Below are positions 1 through 33,326 of a DNA stretch of 33,326 nt, in pieces (position 1 is the first letter of the stretch; the number at the start of each line of letters is the position of its first letter). A program made the position numbers and the translations under genes. The stretch comes from a virus: positions 1 to 33,326 of IMG/VR virus record IMGVR_UViG_3300033998_000271; one strand, 5' to 3'. Below the pieces are notes generated by a model. The model was not told where the DNA came from. It did not search any database and saw only the letters and a list, made by a program, of their open reading frames with translations.

Positions 1-99
1 AAGCCGCACCTCTGTGGCCATGGAGTTAAAAATACTCCATGGAAGGCAGCCTAAAGAGCTGCTAAGAATCCCATCTCCTTCAGGGGATTGGGAGTGTCA
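1..99 (+). mobile_element. Probable right end of an IS200/IS605-type element with omega-RNA-like hairpins
   Basis: Four hairpins follow one another: 3-18 (six pairs with one G-U), 18-42 (nine perfect pairs around TAAAAAT), 46-62 (GCAGC/GCTGC) and 67-88 (AATCCC/GGGATT). The block ends in GGGAGTGTCAA at about 89-99. Stacked hairpins ending in a TCAA-type junction are what I know from right ends of tnpB-bearing IS605-family elements, where this stretch is also the 3' part of the guide-RNA scaffold. The tnpB gene itself would lie left of base 1 and is not visible. The flank that would act as guide starts at about base 100, next to the rsr terminator. It could instead be an unrelated structured RNA. 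Confidence 0.45.
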
Positions 100-112
100 A
101 GTTTCCGTTTCG

Positions 113-145
113 TACAAAAAAGAGGGGAGCTATTTCCCCTCTTAA
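113..145 (-). terminator. Intrinsic terminator of rsr
   Basis: On the minus strand the rsr stop codon runs into an eight-base stem (AAGAGGGG with CCCCTCTT at 120-143) followed by TTTTTT. The same stem and tail, with a different loop, ends the second rsr 3' end at 32972-32998. Confidence 0.85.
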
Positions 146-1695
146 TATTTTTCTTTTATTTCTTGGAGTATATTGAAAGGCTCTTTTTCAGCCATAGCAA
201 TATACTCCAACATTTTTTCACTCCAACCACTGAACAGAAACACTCTCTGTTTCTGAGCAGGTTGAATCGCAGTTCCGTAACCAGCTAAATCGAACGAATA
301 GAAATATGGTCTGCCGTGTCTTTGCAAATATCCGTTTATGCTACCTCTTGCATTGTCACTCCCACTTTGGGAGTAAACTTGCATATCTGAAAACAACAAT
401 ATTCGATTTGGTTCGAAATCTGATTTTTCAAGCAATTCTATGGCTTCTTCAACATATGTGGACATACCTACATCCGTTGATTTGATTGTTTCCATATTTT
501 TGAGGATTCCTCGGTCCAAATCTAACAAAACTTTTTTTGCCGATGAAGCAAAAGCTATAACCAAAGAATTGTCTGAAATATAATTTGCTATAGCTCCCAT
601 TAGGGATGCTATATCTACATACGACACTGACGAATATTGCGATATATAGTTTGTCATTGACCCGCTTGTATCAACAATTACTGTAGTTTTTCCAGGAAGT
701 TTTGGAATATTTTTCACAGACAAAAACAACGCAACTTCAAGAGCTCTCAAAACCTTTTCTTTGTATTCTCTCGAAACATTTGAGAGGCTCGAAACTTCCC
801 TGTATGCCGAATAAAACCGAAATGGGAACTGTTTCGACTTCAATACGGCTTTTTCATCCTTCAATTTTTCAACGACCGAGTCCAAAGCTTGATATGCCCC
901 CGTTTCAAGCAAGTTTCTAAGATTTCTCAAACCAGCCATGAACGGGATATCAAGAGCATTCCAAACTTCGGTTTTGTTTCCGAAGTGGGATATTGCAAGT
1001 TCCCAAGTTGCATGTGACTCTTGAATGAGCTCGAGAGCTTCGGCATCGAATTCTTTCTTTTGTAGCAATTTCTTCAAAGCTCGTATTTGTTTAAGCTCCT
1101 CTCCCACTTCGTCGTATATCAAATAGCGATATAACTGGTTTCGGTACGAATCTTTCGGTTTCGGATGTGTGAGCCGTAGAACATCTTTTAAGCCAGTTTT
1201 GTATTTATTGAGCTGATACTCATCGAAACTTTCAAAAGTATCAGCCAACCCTTTTTTCAACGATGCTGGTAAAGAGCCTTTCGGAGCTTTGTCACCAATA
1301 TCTCCTACAAGCAAGTTGAAAAGTGCTATAACTTCAGACAATTCATCTGCCCTTTTCACAATTCGTGGGACATACTCTCTGACATATGGCTTTGCACCAT
1401 CGTTCAAAGATGCCAAAACCAAAAGCAATATTGGGACTGAGCGTAAATACATAAAATTTCTCGCATAGTTTGCAAGTTGAAGTACAAACTTCGGGTCACT
1501 GTCTAACACTTTTTGTACAACGTTTTTGAGATTTTCAAGGTCTTCTTTTCCCGAAGTATAGAACTTCTCCTCCCCAACAAGATTCGTCAACACTCTTTCG
1601 TACAACTCCATTTCAGGAGTCATACGATATACACGTTCACCCTCGTAATTTCTAACAAACTCTCTTTCTCTTGCTTGTTTCTGAAACTTTGCCAT
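142..1695 (-). CDS. rsr: Ro60/TROVE-domain RNA-binding protein (Rsr)
   Basis: This 517-residue protein is a bacterial Ro60 orthologue. The family forms a HEAT-like ring (TROVE domain, here about residues 15-330) that holds Y RNA on its outside and threads single-stranded RNA ends through its hole. In bacteria it works with exoribonucleases in rRNA and stress RNA decay. The C-terminal von Willebrand A domain (about 335-517) has a complete MIDAS: DTSGS near residue 341, the Thr of MSTYVEE near 408 and the Asp of FSDMQ near 433. The start follows a strong AGGGAGGTG. Three Y RNAs lie directly upstream on the same strand, behind one promoter, with a weak terminator between them and this gene. Bases 346-472 are identical to the right end of the window, where a second version of the 3' end occurs. 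Confidence 0.93.
   Translation of the reverse strand: MAKFQKQAREREFVRNYEGERVYRMTPEMELYERVLTNLVGEEKFYTSGKEDLENLKNVVQKVLDSDPKFVLQLANYARNFMYLRSVPILLLVLASLNDGAKPYVREYVPRIVKRADELSEVIALFNLLVGDIGDKAPKGSLPASLKKGLADTFESFDEYQLNKYKTGLKDVLRLTHPKPKDSYRNQLYRYLIYDEVGEELKQIRALKKLLQKKEFDAEALELIQESHATWELAISHFGNKTEVWNALDIPFMAGLRNLRNLLETGAYQALDSVVEKLKDEKAVLKSKQFPFRFYSAYREVSSLSNVSREYKEKVLRALEVALFLSVKNIPKLPGKTTVIVDTSGSMTNYISQYSSVSYVDIASLMGAIANYISDNSLVIAFASSAKKVLLDLDRGILKNMETIKSTDVGMSTYVEEAIELLEKSDFEPNRILLFSDMQVYSQSGSDNARGSINGYLQRHGRPYFYSFDLAGYGTAIQPAQKQRVFLFSGWSEKMLEYIAMAEKEPFNILQEIKEKY
346..472. repeat. 127-bp direct repeat, copy inside rsr
   Basis: These 127 bases are identical to 33200-33326. They cover rsr codons from the VWA Thr loop to just past the FSDMQ Asp. 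Outside the repeat on the low-coordinate side the two copies fall at once to a diverged but homologous sequence. Confidence 0.95.
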
Positions 1696-2389: not shown

Positions 2390-3340
2390 TCACTCCCCGA
2401 ATTCCGAAAAGGCATCGTCAATTTTCTTTTGCCATTCATCTATTTCTTCGTCAATTTTGTCTGCCACTACAGGTTCTTCTACAACTATTTCAAAGTCTTC
2501 TGGTTTGATTTCTTCTTGCTGTTTTTTCTCTTTTGCCTTTTCTTTCTCTATCAAGCTTTTCAATATTTCTATAGCTTGCTTGATATCGTCAATATCAAAT
2601 TCTTCCATTCTTTTTCCAATCTTTTTCTCGAGATATTTTTCAATATTTTGCTCTTTTTTACCGTATTTTTTAGCAAAAGCTTGAATGTTCGAATGTAACC
2701 TTGTTATATACGCACTTGGTACTGATTTTCGAGTTTCTTTTGTCTCTTCTTCTACAGTTTCTTCAACATTTTCTTCTGGTACTTCATATTGTACATATGA
2801 AGTATCCATTTCTTCTTCAATGTACAATCCGCCTAAATCAAAAGCTCTTCGCAACGCACCCGCCTCTGCTACTTTTTTTATCATTGTTTGCGGCATCGAA
2901 TACCACGGTCCTATATTGCTATTATTCTGCTTGAAATATTCTCGGAACGAAACCGCATGAATCAACGGCTCCTTCCAATCTTTGCGGTAGACATAGCATA
3001 CAGCCCCCGCAATATCTTTTGGGTCATCTACAATCAATTTTTCTTCTCCATCTTTCGTAATTATGAAAGTTTTCATACCTGCCCACTGGTCCGAATTGTG
3101 GGCGATATGAATAAGCCCAGCATGCGAAACCATAATTTTCCCGGGCTCGTTCTGCCGCTTATCTGGCAAGAAAAAAATCTGTCGCTTAAAAGGGTCCAAG
3201 TTATAACGTTTTGCAAGTTCGAGAAACACTGCGAATTCGTCATCGGTAGCCCCTTTCGCAAACATCCTTTTCACAAGTTCTATTTTTTCCTGGCTTTCCA
3301 ATTCCACATTTTCTTGTTTCTTTTCGATTTCTTTACTCAT
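2390..3340 (-). CDS. bet: Bet/RecT-family single-strand annealing protein
   Basis: The protein (316 residues) matches phage recombination protein Bet. The N-terminal motif ATDDEFAVFLELAKRYNLDPF and the following KRQIFFLPDKR are typical, as are the central GLIHIAHNSDQWAGM and the alpha-helical segment MPQTMIKKVAEAGALRRAF. Such proteins coat single-stranded DNA and anneal complementary strands in phage recombination and replication. The C-terminal third is charged, Glu/Lys-rich and probably disordered. It starts inside the end of the upstream 137-residue gene with GGAGGTAG in front. No partner 5'-3' exonuclease was recognised. Confidence 0.88.
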   Translation of the reverse strand: MSKEIEKKQENVELESQEKIELVKRMFAKGATDDEFAVFLELAKRYNLDPFKRQIFFLPDKRQNEPGKIMVSHAGLIHIAHNSDQWAGMKTFIITKDGEEKLIVDDPKDIAGAVCYVYRKDWKEPLIHAVSFREYFKQNNSNIGPWYSMPQTMIKKVAEAGALRRAFDLGGLYIEEEMDTSYVQYEVPEENVEETVEEETKETRKSVPSAYITRLHSNIQAFAKKYGKKEQNIEKYLEKKIGKRMEEFDIDDIKQAIEILKSLIEKEKAKEKKQQEEIKPEDFEIVVEEPVVADKIDEEIDEWQKKIDDAFSEFGE

Positions 3341-3746
3341 CTTTTTCTACCTCCTCATCAATAAATTCTAATCTCGGTTTTTCTTCGATGATAATATCTT
3401 CTTTCAATTTCTCAAAATCTTGCATCCAATTCGGCAATTTCTCATCCATATTTAAAGTTCGTTCTAACTGTGAAATAACCGAAATTTTTGGTTTTACAGT
3501 AATGCTGAATATTCGTTTCGATAACTCTGGGTTCTTCTCAAGCCAAAGTTTTCCTGCTTTTTGTGAAATCTTTGCCTCGTTTCGCCATACAATCTTGGCT
3601 TCATCGCTGAGCCATAAAGGCTTGCCGTCAATAGGTTTATCTACGCTTTCAAAAAGTTTCTTCTCAAGTTCTCGCCTTGCTTCTTTCGCTCGTTGTTCAA
3701 TTTCTTTAATTTCTTTAATCTTTTTTACAATTTCCGTGATTTCCAT
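3333..3746 (-). CDS. Hypothetical protein upstream of bet
   Basis: The family of this 137-residue protein is not recognised. The first 50 residues form a strongly charged helix (EIVKKIKEIKEIEQRAKEAR) that is probably coiled coil. The middle (KPLWLSDEAKIVWRNEAK) and end are acidic and mixed. It overlaps the bet start by eight bases and has its own AAAGGAGGTATT site, so the two are translationally coupled. A role next to the annealing protein, such as a nuclease partner or host exonuclease inhibitor, is possible, but no catalytic motif is visible. Confidence 0.7.
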   Translation of the reverse strand: MEITEIVKKIKEIKEIEQRAKEARRELEKKLFESVDKPIDGKPLWLSDEAKIVWRNEAKISQKAGKLWLEKNPELSKRIFSITVKPKISVISQLERTLNMDEKLPNWMQDFEKLKEDIIIEEKPRLEFIDEEVEKDE

Positions 3747-4593: not shown

Positions 4594-5625
4594 TTACCCC
4601 CAAGGATATAAAGTGATATATCCATCCCAATCCTCTTCCTCATATCCTTTGCAGTGACAATCAAAGTGTAAATATCCCGCAACCCTTTCAATCTGTTCGA
4701 TATTTACATAACTCCAACGAGAAGTGTCCAATGCTATGCACCCGAACTCTTCTAATTCCTTTCTGTGTGCGTTTATATAATAATCTAAGACTTCAATCAT
4801 ATCATCATCTGTCATCGGCCCTTGATTGTCGAAATATATCTCCATGAGATTTTGATGAGGCAAAATATACTCTTCAGGTAGTGATATCCAAAAATTCCCG
4901 TCTCCTTCCGCTTTTTCACAATTCAAACCTAAACCCTCTACAACCTCTATGATTTCCTCATCACTAAAGTTTGTTACATCAGATACGTTCAATAAGAAGT
5001 CTCCATCCTCGTCGAATCCTTTATCCATGATTTCTTCTTCGATAAAGTCTATCAAGATTCTTCTCTCTTTTTCGTTCCTCATTTCCTTCTCCTCCTTTTT
5101 ATTTTTTTCTTTTGTTTCTTTTTGTTCTTCTGTTTTGATTGTTTCTGTTTTTTCAACTTCTTCTATTTCTTCTTCTACTTCTTGCTCTTCTTCTGCTTTT
5201 TCTACTTCTTCAGCGGTTTCTTCTTGCTCCTCTGTTCCTTTTTCTAGTTCTTCTGCTGCAATTCTAATGAATTCAATCAATTTTCCTCTTTCTGCTACTG
5301 CTATTTCTTCTTTTCCATTTTCAGAAACTCTATATAATTTAAATTCCTTTCCATCATATCCGCAAAATTCAACAACCAAAGATCCGTTTGGAACTAAATT
5401 TTGACTTGTTACTTGCAACCATTCTCCCTGAAATGCAAAACCATTCGTTTTTGTAGTATCTACACCAGTTATCAATTTTGCCCAATGTTTATATTTCCCT
5501 AAGTGGTAAGAAGCTGCCCCCATACAATCATGCTCATATACTACCATTTTCATTCCATTCCCCTCCTTCTGATTTTGTTTTCCCTTTTTCACCATTTCTA
5601 TTTGACTTCCCATTGTATTTTTCAT
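4594..5625 (-). CDS. Hypothetical two-domain protein with a long acidic linker
   Basis: The protein has about 343 residues and is not recognised. An N-terminal domain (about 27-115, from MKMVVYEHDCMGAASYHLGK) and a C-terminal domain (from about 184, MRNEKERRILIDF) are joined by a Glu/Lys repeat region. The AGGAGG site lies one base from the first ATG of the open frame (5631), so the next ATG at 5625 is preferred. Two internal ATGs have excellent ribosome sites: 5553 (AAGGAGGGG) and 5082 (AAGGAGGAG), so shorter products are likely. The C-terminal part contains GFDEDGDFLLNVSD and is strongly acidic. It is the only gene behind two tandem promoters. Confidence 0.7.
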   Translation of the reverse strand: MKNTMGSQIEMVKKGKQNQKEGNGMKMVVYEHDCMGAASYHLGKYKHWAKLITGVDTTKTNGFAFQGEWLQVTSQNLVPNGSLVVEFCGYDGKEFKLYRVSENGKEEIAVAERGKLIEFIRIAAEELEKGTEEQEETAEEVEKAEEEQEVEEEIEEVEKTETIKTEEQKETKEKNKKEEKEMRNEKERRILIDFIEEEIMDKGFDEDGDFLLNVSDVTNFSDEEIIEVVEGLGLNCEKAEGDGNFWISLPEEYILPHQNLMEIYFDNQGPMTDDDMIEVLDYYINAHRKELEEFGCIALDTSRWSYVNIEQIERVAGYLHFDCHCKGYEEEDWDGYITLYPWG

Positions 5626-5655
5626 TTTCATACCTCCTTTTTTATTTTCTATTAT

Positions 5656-5684
5656 ATTATATCATATTATATTATATATGTCAA
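5656..5684 (-). promoter_or_regulatory. Proximal promoter of the 5625 gene
   Basis: TTGACA (5679-5684), 17 bases, TATAAT (5656-5661). It shares the upstream context ATTAATATAAAA with the second copy at 5774. Confidence 0.85.
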
Positions 5685-5773
5685 CCTTTTTATATTAATT
5701 GTTTCTAAATATTCTATTACATTTTTGCACTCGTTGCTTTCTTTACTTCCTTTTTATTTTTATCTTCTATTAT

Positions 5774-5802
5774 ATTATATCATATATCTTAGAAAAAGTC
5801 AA
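5774..5802 (-). promoter_or_regulatory. Distal promoter of the 5625 gene
   Basis: TTGACT (5797-5802), 17 bases, TATAAT (5774-5779). The bases on both sides match the proximal promoter, so the pair looks like a 118-bp spaced duplication. No open reading frame of note lies between them. Confidence 0.8.
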
Positions 5803-6012
5803 CCCTTTTATATTAATATTTTGTATCTATTCTATTATAATATAATATATATTTGTTTAAATTATTATTAAGGGACAACTTATAGATTTTTTTATATCCT
5901 TTGCATGCGTCTCAGACACGCTACAATCAATTTTATATATGCAAGCAATAAAATCATACAGGAAGAGGGTGTGAATTCATTCTGGAGCGTTTTAGAGGTC
6001 TTCTCGTCGATA
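5803..6012. other. Gap without a recognisable gene
   Basis: This 210-base AT-rich gap lies between the lysis-end terminator and the tandem promoters. I see no convincing reading frame. It holds a short inverted repeat (GCGTCTCAGACACGC at about 5908) and one copy of an 18-base element also found at 7420. A site such as attP could lie here, but no integrase gene is in the window to support it. Confidence 0.5.
5979..5996 (-). repeat. 18-bp element, copy A
   Basis: The minus strand reads TCTAAAACGCTCCAGAAT. It matches 7420-7437 at 16 of 18 positions. Both copies lie in gene-free gaps around the lysis genes. Confidence 0.45.
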
Positions 6013-24407: not shown

Positions 24408-25589
24408 TCAATCTATATACAATTTTGTCGATACTAACATCGCTCTGTTCTGGTGAGTGTATACAGCGTATCTCATCGCATCCATTGCATGGTCCAAAAA
24501 TTTCACAGGCTCTTCCAGTATCTCTCCGTCTTTTTTCTCTTTCCATTTATACGACTGAATTTCTTTTATTGTGTTTGTGCAAGTCTCATGAATATAAATC
24601 TTTTTTCTTTTTATATAGTCTATACCATTCTTGATTTCTTTCTTTGCAGGATATACATTGAATCCAGCTCGTGTGATTTCTTCTATTCTCATTGGTTCTG
24701 CACTATCAGCATAAATTTCTGCGTTTTTATTTCTCACAAAGCTTTTCAACTTTCCTATCAGTTCTTCGTTCGTCAAATGCGTTTCGTATAATTCTTTTGT
24801 TATATATATATTATCATCTTTTATTCCAATTTCAAGTACCACTGACGGATTATTATACCCAAAGTCTATTCCATAAACAATCTCGTCAAAACTCCCTGGC
24901 ATCTTTGAAACAATTTGATAATTGCTATATATTTTGTTTCTTAATACCGCATACCTTCCCAGGGTATAAATTTGGTAGTATGCTTCATCTTGCTCTTTAA
25001 GCAATTCTAACATTTTCGTATACTCAATGTCAAGGAACGAATTGTCAACATAGGTAGTATGCAAAATTGCTATATCGTCACTTTCTTGCTCGAAAAATTG
25101 TTTCTGTGTCCAACCTGCGACAGGATTGAACGTCAAAAACATCTGATTTACCGAATTTGTTGCACGCCTCAATCGCAACTTCAACTGCAAATAGTCTTCA
25201 AATTCAAATTCCGTTGCCTCTTCCATCCAAATGTAATTAAATTCAGATGATTTGATTTTTTCTGCGTCATCAAGTCCACGAAAATAGATTTCGTTTCGTC
25301 TTGGCAATTGCAAAACTTGCTCTGTTTTGTTCTCCATATATGGTATTTCAAGCTCATTCAATATTTCATGTATCAATTGCCAAGTCGTAACTCGTAAAGA
25401 CGGATTGTATTTCCTTGTCACAAGAAGCCGTTTGTTTCTGTTACTTAGTAATTTTTCTATAATCAAGAATTGAGCAACTGTATACGATTTCCCACTTCCT
25501 GCTCCACCGTACACAACTATTTCTTTCTGCTTTCTACATTCTTGAAGAAACGCATATATTTTCTTTATTACCTTAACTCTCGCTTCCAT
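24408..25589 (-). CDS. terL: Terminase large subunit
   Basis: The protein has about 393 residues. The ATPase domain has Walker A GGAGSGKS near residue 28-35, and Walker B with catalytic Glu in FNYIWMEEATEF. The RNase-H-like nuclease domain has YGIDFGYNNPS, IYADSAEP and DHAMDAMRYA for the metal-binding acids. It is of the Terminase_3/XtmB type. I choose the ATG at 25589 with AAGGA upstream over the TTG at 25607; both overlap the small subunit end. Confidence 0.95.
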   Translation of the reverse strand: MEARVKVIKKIYAFLQECRKQKEIVVYGGAGSGKSYTVAQFLIIEKLLSNRNKRLLVTRKYNPSLRVTTWQLIHEILNELEIPYMENKTEQVLQLPRRNEIYFRGLDDAEKIKSSEFNYIWMEEATEFEFEDYLQLKLRLRRATNSVNQMFLTFNPVAGWTQKQFFEQESDDIAILHTTYVDNSFLDIEYTKMLELLKEQDEAYYQIYTLGRYAVLRNKIYSNYQIVSKMPGSFDEIVYGIDFGYNNPSVVLEIGIKDDNIYITKELYETHLTNEELIGKLKSFVRNKNAEIYADSAEPMRIEEITRAGFNVYPAKKEIKNGIDYIKRKKIYIHETCTNTIKEIQSYKWKEKKDGEILEEPVKFLDHAMDAMRYAVYTHQNRAMLVSTKLYID

Positions 25590-25971
25590 CTTGCTTTTCC
25601 TTATCAATATATTCTACAACTACCTTGAATCCATCTTTATCGGCTGCAAGGTCAACTCTTTCCTTCCTTCCCCAGTCCTCAAAATACTTTCTTTCAAGCC
25701 ACCACGCTGCTGCTTGCCAATTCCCTTCTTGCGCTGCACGTTGAATCAATGCGACATTTCTTGCGATTGCGTCTTTTTCTGCCTTTTTCACAGTCTCGTA
25801 AAATTCTCTTTTCATGCCGCTTTTAGCTTTCTCACCTTCGTTTAACCAGCGAAACCACGTCGAATCATCTATTCCGAGGATAGGGGGTATATCTTTTATA
25901 TAATTTCCCGCAGAAACCAATCTATACGCTTCTTTTATCAATTCTTCAGTTAATTTCGATTTTCTAGCCAT
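25573..25971 (-). CDS. terS: Terminase small subunit
   Basis: The protein has about 132 residues. The N-terminal helix-turn-helix (KLTEELIKEAYRLVSAGNY, then ILGIDDSTWFRWLNEGEK) and the following ATPase-linked helix region (AIARNVALIQRAAQEGNWQAA, AAWWLERKYFEDW) are typical of small terminase proteins that recognise the packaging site. Several ATGs occur at the start; the one at 25971 (MARKSKL) is chosen, while 25986 is also possible. Confidence 0.88.
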   Translation of the reverse strand: MARKSKLTEELIKEAYRLVSAGNYIKDIPPILGIDDSTWFRWLNEGEKAKSGMKREFYETVKKAEKDAIARNVALIQRAAQEGNWQAAAWWLERKYFEDWGRKERVDLAADKDGFKVVVEYIDKEKQDGSES

Positions 25972-25997
25972 TCTCACCATCTCCATTTTACATTGAG

Positions 25998-28682: not shown

Positions 28683-29050
28683 TACTCTTCCGCCTCCTTA
28701 ATAATAATTTCCACTCTCGGATTTTTATTGTCAATCTCAAAATAATGAAAAATATTCCTAATCTGCTTCCATCCATCATTTTCAATCACTCCTGCTGCAA
28801 CAAGCCCGTCTATAACAAACTTTTGCCCTGCAATAATATTGTCCTTGTCTCGCTTCCTGTTTTTGCAAAACCAAGTGAAAACCAAGTCTACCATTTGATA
28901 TTTCCCTTTGATTTGATTTTTTGCAAGAAATGCTATCTCTTCCGTCCTAGAATGCTTTTCCTCCGCATACTTTGCCCAGTGTTCCTTCGATATCGCTATA
29001 ATTTCGTTCAATCCCGGGAGTTCCCCAGGAATAATAAGTTTTTCAGTCAT
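28682..29050 (-). CDS. rusA: RusA-family Holliday junction resolvase
   Basis: The protein has about 122 residues. It shows the RusA pattern: PGELPGLNEI at the start, KNRKRDKDNIIAGQKFVIDG with the catalytic acids near residues 67-80, and GVIENDGWKQI with the later Asp near 90. The C-terminal strand is RVEIIIKEAE. RusA is a dimeric nuclease that resolves Holliday junctions in phage recombination and replication. The ATG at 29050 overlaps the SSB stop; 29065 is a less likely start. Confidence 0.88.
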   Translation of the reverse strand: MTEKLIIPGELPGLNEIIAISKEHWAKYAEEKHSRTEEIAFLAKNQIKGKYQMVDLVFTWFCKNRKRDKDNIIAGQKFVIDGLVAAGVIENDGWKQIRNIFHYFEIDNKNPRVEIIIKEAEE

Positions 29051-29480
29051 CTTCGAACCCTTCATTCAAAATCTTGTCAAAGTCATCGTCGGTGAAGGTC
29101 AAATCTTCATAACTTTCTTCTTTTTTTTCTTCAACAATAGTTTCATTCTCTTGCCTACTCTTCTTTGTTTCAAGGAATCTGAAATTGTTCACAATGATTT
29201 TTGCCCTCTCAAACTGTGAATCCGTTTTTTCACCCCACTTAGCTATTTCCAATCTGCCTTCGACGAGTATCAATACGCCTTTCCCAACATACGACGCTAT
29301 AGTATCCGCCGTTTTCCCAAAAGCCACACAATTGAAGAAATCTGTTTCTGAGTCTCTTCCAAATTCTCTATCAACAGCCAACGTAAAATTCACAACTTTT
29401 TGCATTCCTGTCGTCATCTTCACTTCTGGTACCCTAGTCGTCCTACCTACCAAAATTACCTTATTATAACTGATTGACAT
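29043..29480 (-). CDS. ssb: Single-stranded DNA-binding protein
   Basis: The protein has 145 residues. It has the OB fold of bacterial SSB: YNKVILVGRTTRVPEVKMT, VVNFTLAVDREFG, DFFNCVAFGKTADTIASYVGKG, and LVEGRLEIAKW. The C-terminal tail is acidic (TFTDDDFDKILNEGFEDD) but does not end in the usual DDDIPF, so its protein contacts may differ. GGAGGGGGTATAAA precedes the ATG. It lies between dnaB and rusA in the replication operon. Confidence 0.93.
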   Translation of the reverse strand: MSISYNKVILVGRTTRVPEVKMTTGMQKVVNFTLAVDREFGRDSETDFFNCVAFGKTADTIASYVGKGVLILVEGRLEIAKWGEKTDSQFERAKIIVNNFRFLETKKSRQENETIVEEKKEESYEDLTFTDDDFDKILNEGFEDD

Positions 29481-29481
29481 T

Positions 29482-30777
29482 TTATACCCCCTCCTCGTAT
29501 TCGATAAATTCTAAAGTTTCTTTTTCAAAATATAACTTTATGCTTCCCGTTGGCCCATTTCTATGCTTTGCAATAATTATTTCTGTCTCTTCTGTTTCAA
29601 TCTCTTGTCCAATTTCAGTATAATAATCAGGTCTATACAAGAATAAAACTATATCTGCATTCTGCTCAATTTCTCCTGAATCTCTAAGATCTGATAAAAC
29701 AGGCTTTTTATTCGTCCTTCTTTCCACTTCACGTGAAAGCTGCGCAAGCATAACAACCGCAACTTTCAATTCTCTAGCCATAACTTTTGCAATTCTTGAA
29801 ACCTCTCCTACCTCCACATTCTTGTTATTATACTCGCTTGAAGAATTTATCAATTGGAGATAATCAATATAAACAACATCTACCTTGTGTTTCCTAATCT
29901 CAAGCTTTATCTCATTTATTGTCATGTTACTATTGTCTAATATTATTAAATTATCTTCAACACTTTTCAAAAAATCAAAAGCTTCTACAACTTTATCAAA
30001 TTCTCTATTCGTGAGGTCTCCACCTCTTATTTTTTGCAAACTTACTCCTGATATTTCTGCAACCATTCTTTCAACAAGTAATTCCATTGCCATTTCAAGT
30101 GAAAATATCATAACTTTTTCACCATTTCTAACCTGTTTAATTGCCATATTCAGCATTAAAGCTGTCTTTCCCATTCCAGGCCTTGCTGCAAGAATAATCA
30201 AGTCTCCTCTATGAAACCCTTTTGTGAATTTATTCAGTAAAGAATACCCAGTATCAATCTCAATCAGCGGTTTGCCTTCTTCTCGCCTTTTTTTCCTTTC
30301 TACAACGGCATCCAAAATATCCATAATATTTTTACTTTCTTCTATTTCTTCCTGAATGTTTCTTTCAAGACTTTTTTGATACACTTTTTCCAAATCATCT
30401 ACTTTTAAATCTCCAGGATTTTTCAATATACTTTCAATCTCTTTGTTCATTTTCAATAGATTCTGTTTTTTTGATATCTCTCTCACTTTTTGACATGAAA
30501 CCAGGAAGTCAATATAATCATATGTTCCTTCAATTATATTAATTATTATCTCGTGTATATTATCTATATCCAAAAGTTGTGATATAATATTATCAGGTGT
30601 TATATTCCTACCCTCCTTATAGAGATTTTCGCATACAGAGAATATACTGCGATAAATATAGTCTGAAAAATCTTCGCTTCGCAGTATATTTCTTGCTTCA
30701 TTGAAGTTCTCTGGTTTTAACAAAATTCCAGCAATAACATTCCTTTCACTCTTTTGTTTTAACTCTTGTTCGTTCAT
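29482..30777 (-). CDS. dnaB: Replicative DNA helicase (DnaB type)
   Basis: The protein has about 431 residues. The N-terminal DnaB domain begins SERNVIAGILLKPENFNEA. The RecA-like core has TGYSLLNKFTKGFHRGDLI, Walker A ARPGMGKT near 199-206, MIFSLEMAMELLVERM, Walker B VVYIDYLQLI, and LSREVERRTNKKPVLSDLRDSGEIEQNADIV near the end. It unwinds DNA at the fork as a hexamer. The ATG at 30777 has AGGTGG at ideal distance and overlaps the initiator gene. No separate helicase loader was recognised. Confidence 0.95.
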   Translation of the reverse strand: MNEQELKQKSERNVIAGILLKPENFNEARNILRSEDFSDYIYRSIFSVCENLYKEGRNITPDNIISQLLDIDNIHEIIINIIEGTYDYIDFLVSCQKVREISKKQNLLKMNKEIESILKNPGDLKVDDLEKVYQKSLERNIQEEIEESKNIMDILDAVVERKKRREEGKPLIEIDTGYSLLNKFTKGFHRGDLIILAARPGMGKTALMLNMAIKQVRNGEKVMIFSLEMAMELLVERMVAEISGVSLQKIRGGDLTNREFDKVVEAFDFLKSVEDNLIILDNSNMTINEIKLEIRKHKVDVVYIDYLQLINSSSEYNNKNVEVGEVSRIAKVMARELKVAVVMLAQLSREVERRTNKKPVLSDLRDSGEIEQNADIVLFLYRPDYYTEIGQEIETEETEIIIAKHRNGPTGSIKLYFEKETLEFIEYEEGV

Positions 30778-31906
30778 CTGTTTCCACCTCACTCTCTTTT
30801 TTTATTTTTTCAGTAAATTTCTTATTCCATTCTTTAATCTTCATTTTATACCACTCTTCAAGCTTTTTAAAATCATTTTCATCTAAAATATTAATTTTAT
30901 TTTCTTCTTTAAAAACTTTCAAAGCTTGTTTTGGTGATAAATTCGGCGGAGTAATGCCTATACTAAACTTTTCAATAAACTCTTGCTCTTTTGCTATCAC
31001 TACTTTCTCCCTCGTACTCAAAACATCGTTGTAGTATGCTTCAAACTTCGATGGTCGAAACAACGTTGAAGGTCTCAAATATTCGTTCATTTTTTCATCA
31101 TTCAACCATTTTTCAACCCTATTATCAATCACCGCTTTGAGATCTGATATGCTGTAACCTTCACTAAGTCTACCATTAATGAGTTTTATAGCTTCCTTGT
31201 TTGTAGCTCTAAAATGTTTATTAGCTTTTTTGTTTAAGTAAGATATAACTTCTTCAATAATAGCTTTATTTTTAATCTCTTTTGCTTTAGGAGATTTCTT
31301 CTTTGTAGGTTTTTCTTTTGAATATTCTTTAAAAGTTTCTTGTTTTTTCGAAGTTTCTGACAAAGAGGGAGTGTTCTTCGAAGAAGAACGAATACTTTCT
31401 TTTTCTTTTATATTTTCTTTTTCTTTTATATTATTATTATATATATTATTATATATATTATTATTGTTTCTAATTTCCGTCAAACTGGTTTCTAATTTCC
31501 AATCAACTGGTTTCTGTTTTTCGTCCATCAAGTTTTCTAATTTCCGACCAACTGGTATAGTAACCTCTAACTCTTTCTTTAAAGAAGTTAGTTTCGCTAA
31601 TTTTTCATAATCTATTCGTATATATCTTTTTGCAGGCATACCCATTAATTTTCTTTCTATAATTCCTAATTCTTCTGCTTTTTTTAAATACTTTTCTTGT
31701 TTCCATTTTTTTAGGCCTGTTCTTTCCTCCATTTCTTCGATAGTTTGGAAGAACCATGGGCCACTTCCATTGTGGCTAAAAAACTTATCGGCACTTATTA
31801 AATAACCTATAAAGGCTGCAAATTCGAGTCCATATTTTCTTACTAAATTTTCATTCACATAAAAATTATTCCCTTGTAAACAATTAAATATATTTTCAGG
31901 ATACAT
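30746..31906 (-). CDS. Replication initiator with winged-helix and Phg_2220_C-like domain
   Basis: The protein has 386 residues. The N-terminal winged-helix region (QGNNFYVNENLVRKYG, then GPWFFQTIEEMEERTGLKKW) is shared with the upstream gene. An Asn/Ile/Lys low-complexity linker follows (about 150-210). Residues 215-295 match the phage C-terminal replication domain Phg_2220_C: IIEEVISYLNKKANKHFRAT, INGRLSEGYSISDLKAVID, YLRPSTLFRPSKFEAYYND. Such proteins open the phage origin and load helicase. Iteron-like DNA repeats with an AT-rich stretch lie inside the gene at 31405-31554. It precedes dnaB, as expected. Confidence 0.85.
   Translation of the reverse strand: MYPENIFNCLQGNNFYVNENLVRKYGLEFAAFIGYLISADKFFSHNGSGPWFFQTIEEMEERTGLKKWKQEKYLKKAEELGIIERKLMGMPAKRYIRIDYEKLAKLTSLKKELEVTIPVGRKLENLMDEKQKPVDWKLETSLTEIRNNNNIYNNIYNNNIKEKENIKEKESIRSSSKNTPSLSETSKKQETFKEYSKEKPTKKKSPKAKEIKNKAIIEEVISYLNKKANKHFRATNKEAIKLINGRLSEGYSISDLKAVIDNRVEKWLNDEKMNEYLRPSTLFRPSKFEAYYNDVLSTREKVVIAKEQEFIEKFSIGITPPNLSPKQALKVFKEENKINILDENDFKKLEEWYKMKIKEWNKKFTEKIKKESEVETDERTRVKTKE
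31405..31554. other. Probable replication origin: four 22-bp iterons with AT-rich flank
   Basis: Iterons on the plus strand: 31466-31487, 31488-31509, 31510-31531 (diverged) and 31532-31554 (one extra base). Each starts GTTTCT, has AATTTCC in the middle and ends in ACTG or a variant. Directly beside them, 31405-31465 is almost pure A/T with TATTATTATATATATTATTA. The unit of 22 is not a multiple of three, so it was not made by protein repeats. Origins inside the initiator gene are known from lambda O and lactococcal phages. Confidence 0.75.
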
Positions 31907-32673: not shown

Positions 32674-32706
32674 TTCGTACAAAAAAAGGGGCAAAAGTCC
32701 CCTTTT
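32674..32706 (-). terminator. Terminator of the 32705 gene
   Basis: AAAAGGGG, loop, CCCCTTTT and TTT on the minus strand, followed by TTGTACGAA, the same tail as at the two rsr terminators. Confidence 0.85.
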
Positions 32707-32893
32707 ATTTTTGTGTTAACCACTTTTCAAAAATCTTTTGTTTTTCTTCGTTGAAAGGATTTTCTTCGATGTACTTGTCTATTGCTTTGCTTGCCAACTC
32801 GTGCATTGGTATTCCTGAAAGCTGCGAATAGATTTTAAGCTTTTTATGAGTAAGTTTTTCAACTGCAACGTGTTTCAACCTTTCTTTAGCCAT
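32705..32893 (-). CDS. Ribbon-helix-helix regulator B
   Basis: The protein has 62 residues, similar to regulator A: strand (LKHVAVEKLTHKKLKIY), then the helix HELASKAIDKYIEENPF. AAGGAGGTGAAAAA precedes the ATG. It stands alone between two terminators, next to the second rsr 3' end, and two TTCGTACAA sites lie upstream of it. It may control its own promoter; no clear -35/-10 pair was found there. Confidence 0.8.
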   Translation of the reverse strand: MAKERLKHVAVEKLTHKKLKIYSQLSGIPMHELASKAIDKYIEENPFNEEKQKIFEKWLTQK

Positions 32894-32948: not shown

Positions 32949-32974
32949 TTCGTACAATTTTATCTTTCGTACAA
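32949..32974. repeat. Tandem TTCGTACAA sites
   Basis: TTCGTACAA occurs at 32949-32957 and 32966-32974; further copies are at 109-117 and 32674-32682. Three of the four touch the A-run of a terminator. Confidence 0.55.
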
Positions 32975-32998
32975 AAAAGAGGGGCAAAACCCCTCTTA
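32972..32998 (-). terminator. Terminator after the second rsr 3' end
   Basis: AAGAGGGG, loop TTTTG, CCCCTCTT and TTTT on the minus strand. Stem and tail are the same as at 113-145; the loop differs. Confidence 0.88.
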
Positions 32999-33326
32999 GT
33001 AATTATGTTTGATTTCTTCTATAATATTAAGCCCTTCCTTCTCAGAAAGAGCTATATAATTCAACATCTTCTCACTCCACCCGCTAAACAAGGTAACTCC
33101 TTTCTTCCAAAGTGGTTGCACCGATGAGCCGTATCCTGCAAGGTCGAAGGAGTAAAAATGCGGATGGTTATGAGTTTCTAAATAGTGTGATATGCTTCGT
33201 CTTGCATTGTCACTCCCACTTTGGGAGTAAACTTGCATATCTGAAAACAACAATATTCGATTTGGTTCGAAATCTGATTTTTCAAGCAATTCTATGGCTT
33301 CTTCAACATATGTGGACATACCTACA
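32996..33326 (-). CDS. rsr: Ro60/TROVE protein, C-terminal end only (second rsr version)
   Basis: The frame is open to the right edge. Only the last part of the VWA domain is present: MSTYVEEAIELLEKSD with the MIDAS Thr, FSDMQV with the Asp, then a C-terminus that matches the first rsr at about 42 of 67 residues. The diverged tail is 204 bases long in both versions (142-345 and 32996-33199), so joining it to codons 1-450 of the first gene gives again exactly 517 residues. This can be the true end of rsr in a circular genome or a second rsr gene cut off by the window. Confidence 0.88.
   Translation of the reverse strand, partial: VGMSTYVEEAIELLEKSDFEPNRILLFSDMQVYSQSGSDNARRSISHYLETHNHPHFYSFDLAGYGSSVQPLWKKGVTLFSGWSEKMLNYIALSEKEGLNIIEEIKHNY
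33200..33326. repeat. 127-bp direct repeat, copy at the right edge
   Basis: These bases are identical to 346-472 and end exactly at the window edge. A length of 127 is also a common largest k in de Bruijn assemblers, so the edge may mark an assembly-graph branch rather than a biological end. Confidence 0.95.

Follow-up and report, generated by a model that had tools for sequence, protein, structure and literature searches.

A 127-base repeat at the end of a phage contig as the probable closure point of a circular 32.9-kb genome and its junction with a second rsr variant

We analyzed a 33,326-nt IMG/VR virus record (IMGVR_UViG_3300033998_000271, the whole of which is called the window here) and conclude, with a probability of about 0.9, that the 127-base repeat joining its right end to an internal site is a fork where the assembly of a circular 32.9-kb phage closed on itself and ran into a second variant of rsr. 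The repeat would then be no biological feature in itself, and the case is ordinary overall. Judging from sequence alone, the window would be a metagenome contig read from a de Bruijn graph with k = 127, and the real object behind it a circular or circularly permuted siphophage genome of 32,854 bp (346–33199). The rsr gene would cross the artificial ends of the contig, from its trunk (1695–473) through 472–346 into a tail at 33199–32996 (tail B). The same assembly would also contain a second variant, which has no less than 127 bp of rsr trunk in common with the first before it continues into a different tail (tail A) and terminator; adjoining that terminator would be the right end of a non-autonomous IS200/IS605-type element of 228 bp. 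The assembler path would have started in the variant branch (1–345), passed into the shared k-mer, made one circuit, and stopped on meeting that k-mer again.

Repeat lengths and probable closure of the circle

The last 127 bases of the window (33200–33326) are an exact copy of 346–472, as the first-pass annotation had reported, and the match extends not one base more leftwards, since the base left of each copy differs. Chance alone would not come close to producing an exact repeat of 127 bases. Neither copy is assigned a strand. The copy at 346–472 would be the graph vertex that both closes the circle and forms the junction with branch 1–345, and the copy at the right contig end is redundant with it once the circle is closed. 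Exact matches of the same length were observed at other contig ends. L003, a 6,994-bp IMG/VR contig, opens with 127 bases identical to window 889–763 and then falls to 63% identity, which would place a second k = 127 vertex (763–889, no strand) inside rsr. The opening 127 bases of L005 exactly match 3001–3127 of L062/L063. In the 34,478-bp related phage L012, whose TerL is 64% identical to that of the window, the first 127 bases equal the last 127, giving a cleanly closed circle. Positions 1–127 of the window itself consist of 100 nt of element end and 27 nt common to L003.

Because the length of 127 recurs at independent contig ends, the repeat is best read as a graph junction and not a conversion tract, and the start and end of the window would both be graph vertices. 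The usual SPAdes k list is 21, 33, 55, 77, 99, and 127, with 127 the largest, and when forks break metaSPAdes or MEGAHIT contigs, the resulting ends overlap by maxK (COBRA; PMC10914622). The overlap in the window is exactly this maxK, 127 bp without extension. We infer the assembler and k = 127 from the repeat lengths, and L003 probably belonged to the same assembly graph as the window. Like the fork-broken and self-circular contigs treated by COBRA (PMC10914622), the window has an overlap of exactly maxK, a break where a strain variant joins, and a circle that is recoverable once the branch is set aside. It differs from them in that the overlap lies between one end and an internal site and the variant branch was taken in first. 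IMG/VR classes the record as linear, and an end-repeat test would give this call because the path took in side branch 1–345 before circling. The other contig predicted to share 1–127 was not found in viral_contigs, where exact patterns from the 127-mer also had no match, in a collection from which records close to the window may be missing.

Joining 33199 to 346 yields a circle of 32,854 bp and an intact rsr of 517 codons. The genes of the circle are all on the minus strand and comprise TerS, TerL, portal, major head protein, minor tail protein, tape measure, tail fibre, and lysin, together with RecT, DnaB, SSB, a RusA-like nuclease, a replication initiator, and Arc- and omega-like repressors. 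This closure, proposed earlier as a gene-complete phage with an intact rsr, therefore gives a co-oriented siphophage circle, and it is also syntenic with relatives. In one unbroken contig, L044, we observed the order RecT, YrlA, rsr, a 52-aa RHH-like ORF (3221–3379), Phg_2220-like proteins, DnaB, SSB, TerS, and TerL. The counterparts in the window are, in the same order, RecT (2390–3340), the Y RNAs, rsr, an Arc-like gene (32705–32893), and then 30746–31906, 29482–30792, 29043–29480, 25573–25986, and 24408–25607. The Arc-like gene (minus strand) encodes a 62-aa Arc/RHH-like repressor (phrog_3180, 7.8e-7); closure of the circle puts it immediately downstream of rsr, so rsr is followed by an RHH-like gene in both genomes. 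The gene order of L044 is the one predicted by closure with tail B, which supports the junction in a relative. The k = 127 signature, the gene-complete co-oriented circle, and the unbroken order in L044 all favor the earlier reading of a circle with 1–345 as an alternative branch.

The first-pass annotation had also offered tandem rsr genes with a shared segment that was recently converted; in that case a linear genome would have copy A at its left, and copy B would come in from its right. Both tails do complete 517-aa frames and each has its own terminator, as tandem genes would. However, the two copies share exactly as many bases as the assembly k, and the B path ends on the last shared k-mer base as if 473 onward were the sole continuation, while a second rsr with a different 5′ part should normally open a further exit. 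An rsr query matches L044 and L012 at one place each, and rsr in L044 is followed by the RHH-like ORF and replication genes, as tail B is, with no second rsr behind them. To the left of tail A, moreover, lies a mobile-element end and not phage genes. With the repeat an assembly constant and a single rsr match in each relative, we regard tandem genes as very improbable. Branch A, under the reading of a closed circle with a side branch, probably derives from a variant strain or a separate replicon rather than from a second locus in this genome.

The rsr gene, its 3′ ends and the adjacent Y RNAs

The rsr trunk (473–1695, minus strand, start codon at 1695) encodes a TROVE domain (PF05731, 2e-35) and most of a VWA domain (PF13519, 3.9e-6, only just above its cut-off), the two domains of Ro60/Rsr, and forms one gene with either tail. 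Tail A lies on the alternative branch (142–345, minus strand) and completes a 517-aa ORF at 142–1695; tail B lies on the circle (32996–33199, minus strand) and gives a joined ORF of 517 codons. Each consists of 67 codons and a stop, so the equal length of 204 bases noted previously holds with the stop codon included. The tails are identical at 128/204 nt and 42/67 amino acids with no indel. Tail A has a GC content of 37%, near the 36% of the window, and its reading frame continues that of the trunk. Differences between the tails fall 25/9/42 at first, second, and third codon positions, with a pN of 0.24 and saturated pS. Since the differences are mainly at third positions and pN is low against saturated pS, the tails are old homologues under purifying selection and not products of targeted diversification. 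Their probable origin is homologous exchange between rsr alleles that had diverged.

Both tails are followed by AAGAGGGG-loop-CCCCTCTTTTTTGTACGAAA. The terminator stem that the first-pass annotation described as the same after each tail is indeed identical, but the loops differ. The terminator after tail B (32965–32995, minus strand) reads AGAGGGG-TTTTG-CCCCTCT-TTTTT and carries a TTGTACGAA motif. On branch A, the terminator and the right flank of the element together occupy 101–141 (minus strand), of which 101–127 is the 27-nt part common to L003, with divergence exactly at 128. Rfam matches to sraA, SraG, and similar families were rejected as terminators and chance. The motif TTCGTACAA has six copies in the window, with those at 109, 32674, 32949, and 32966 listed; three of them come immediately after terminator stems near rsr and the Arc-like gene, and the copy at 32949 is 17 bp from one of these three. 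The motif might serve as an operator or as a site of exchange.

Comparison with L003 indicated that the boundary between trunk and tail has no special status. L003 contains the 3′ half of rsr at 1–787, with 40% GC versus 46% for the rest of the contig (800–6994), and it shares only rsr with the window, with no detectable similarity elsewhere. Along rsr, the two sequences are identical in the shared 127 bp, 63% identical onward into the tail, identical again in a 95-bp block, and then divergent once more. The block is found in tail A (209–303, equal to L003 587–681) but is not identical in tail B; the expected count of a 95-bp identical run at the background identity is ~2e-17. Because of this identical block amid a 63% background, rsr is mosaic in this phage set, in keeping with patchwork exchange. 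The earlier claim of a varying C-terminal stretch of 67 residues in an otherwise conserved protein is not supported by this comparison, as the L003 difference begins ~140 codons earlier and much of the L003 tail is identical to allele A. The 67-residue limit would be only where branches A and B happen to part. With 127 as the assembler k, the window sequence sets no upper bound on the identity of the two versions right of 472, and conservation of the rest cannot be read from it.

One rsr trunk sequence thus has three 3′ continuations, found in the circle, in branch A with its element end, and in L003, an otherwise unrelated phage. A programmed device (an invertase, a shufflon-like system, or a retroelement) that swaps rsr 3′ ends, giving several Rsr proteins per lineage, would also produce such a set. 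Yet no inverted repeats bracket the switch point, the differences span all substitution types with the third-position bias of old divergence, and L003 splits from the window at a codon other than the one where A and B part. Neither an invertase nor a reverse transcriptase was seen among the scanned window genes, which were part of the ORFs. We therefore give programmed swapping hardly any credence, and exchange between diverged alleles remains our preferred account of the tails. A further, tentative suggestion, on balance rather unlikely, is that rsr is a recurrent crossover border between a conserved module (RecT, Y RNAs, and the 5′ part of rsr) and exchangeable downstream early regions.

Upstream of rsr and after RecT, three Y RNAs lie in tandem on the minus strand (1764–2130; approximately 1764–1890, 1910–2037, and 2055–2130), with fold z scores of -2.95, -4.76, and -3.47. 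By alignment, two of the three have the tRNA-like YrlA module. The third is short and keeps the GUGU...UACUUCG / CAGUUUCUCC stem with the tRNA-like module absent. Matches to RF02553 had E values of 6.6e-4 and 0.19, both under the gathering score (34.1 bits vs 69). Because the score is below gathering while the structure and the tRNA-like module are present, we call these RNAs YrlA-like only. As in the YrlA-Rsr modules of bacteria and phages, a TROVE and VWA protein has YrlA-like RNAs just upstream, and the RecT-YrlA-rsr order of phage modules also occurs in L044 and L012. The window differs in having three tandem Y RNAs, the third without the tRNA-like module, and in its rsr, for which identity to the best phage records reaches only about 32%. 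At 1643–1822 of L044, likewise upstream of rsr, a YrlA-like RNA has a genuine tRNA gene immediately behind it (Rfam tRNA, 70.5 bits).

A short mobile element at the start of the window

Positions 1–100 (plus strand) are the right end of a non-autonomous IS200/IS605-type element 228 bp long, with the arrangement GAAT-hairpin-GGGAGTG-TCAA, which the first-pass annotation had missed. These 100 bases are 100% identical in L004 (12626–12726) and L005, and the three flanks differ immediately past ...GTGTCAA. The complete copy is L005:128–355 (228 bp), and L062/L063 have the corresponding empty site. Comparison of the empty AATGAC|AAAGCC with the filled AATGAC|AGAAAAACAGCC...GTGTCAA|AAAGCC delimits a 228-bp insertion without target duplication. 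L003 has the right flank of the window element with the element absent (TTTTTGAC|GTTTCCGTTTCGTAC) and looks like the empty site of the window insertion. Insertion was thus found 3′ of a short fixed target without duplication, at the L063/L005 site and in L003 (TTTTTGAC|GTTTCC), a result that covers two sites only, with a filled copy and both of its sides observed at one.

The right end of IS608 has the guide GAAT (G_R) and the cleavage site TCAA (C_R) (PMC5934647), and window 66–100 (GAATCCCATCTCCTTCAGGGGATTGGGAGTGTCAA) likewise contains GAAT, a hairpin, and TCAA. In bacterial and archaeal genomes the same right-end signature was often located just behind TnpB. Among right ends with at least 1.2 kb upstream, a long ORF ended no more than 600 nt away in 23/39; overall, 14 adjacent ORFs formed one homologous family, and the two tested were OrfB_IS605/TNB. 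The IS608-like right end, together with the frequent position of the same signature just after TnpB, leads us to classify the 228-bp sequence as a probable ends-only IS200/IS605-type element. It resembles the Halanaerobium PATE, an ends-only IS200/IS605 element of ~271 nt (PMC7290912), in being short and ORF-less with subterminal hairpins, and differs in its length of 228 bp and its target TGAC.

The element has no ORF, was seen at three sites in phage contigs (L005, the window, and L004), and has a strong predicted RNA fold (-100 kcal/mol, z -5.1). It matched no Rfam family, no near-identical copy was found in genome_contigs, plasmids, or phages, and no autonomous partner able to move it was located. 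Three other assignments were rejected. L005 1–168 is not a TnpB C-terminus, as it has no Pfam match and L062/L063 identify it as the phage's own pre-insertion sequence. A HEARO/IscB RNA was dismissed for want of an Rfam match and for poor alignment to the true HEARO of L012, and a group I intron for want of an Rfam match. The HEARO RNA of L012 (4364–4586; RF02033, 137 bits) is followed by a 431-aa IscB-like HNH protein (4614–5909), and this unit is inserted between DnaB and SSB of that closed related phage.

The element also bears on the origin of branch 1–345, which could belong to a different replicon or prophage (a second phage or the chromosome of the host) with part of rsr in common. Its 1–100 part has 50% GC against 36% for the window and occurs in phages of 47–49% GC, and L003, similar to the window only in rsr, has 46% GC outside that gene. 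Against this stand the window-like GC content of tail A and its in-frame join to the trunk. We consider a different replicon possible, with the odds somewhat against it.

Implications for the phage genome and for rsr

This analysis keeps an assembly constant from being read as biology. The phage genome is best given as the 32,854-bp circle (346–33199), with 1–345 reported apart as a variant. A contig end identical to an internal site over exactly 127 bp is a warning sign of a fork, even where an end-repeat test returns "linear". We found no support for tandem rsr genes, for programmed variation of the tail, or for a variable end of 67 residues. The biology left over is modest, comprising mosaicism of phage rsr, which lies next to a Y RNA cluster, and the movement of a small element among phages.
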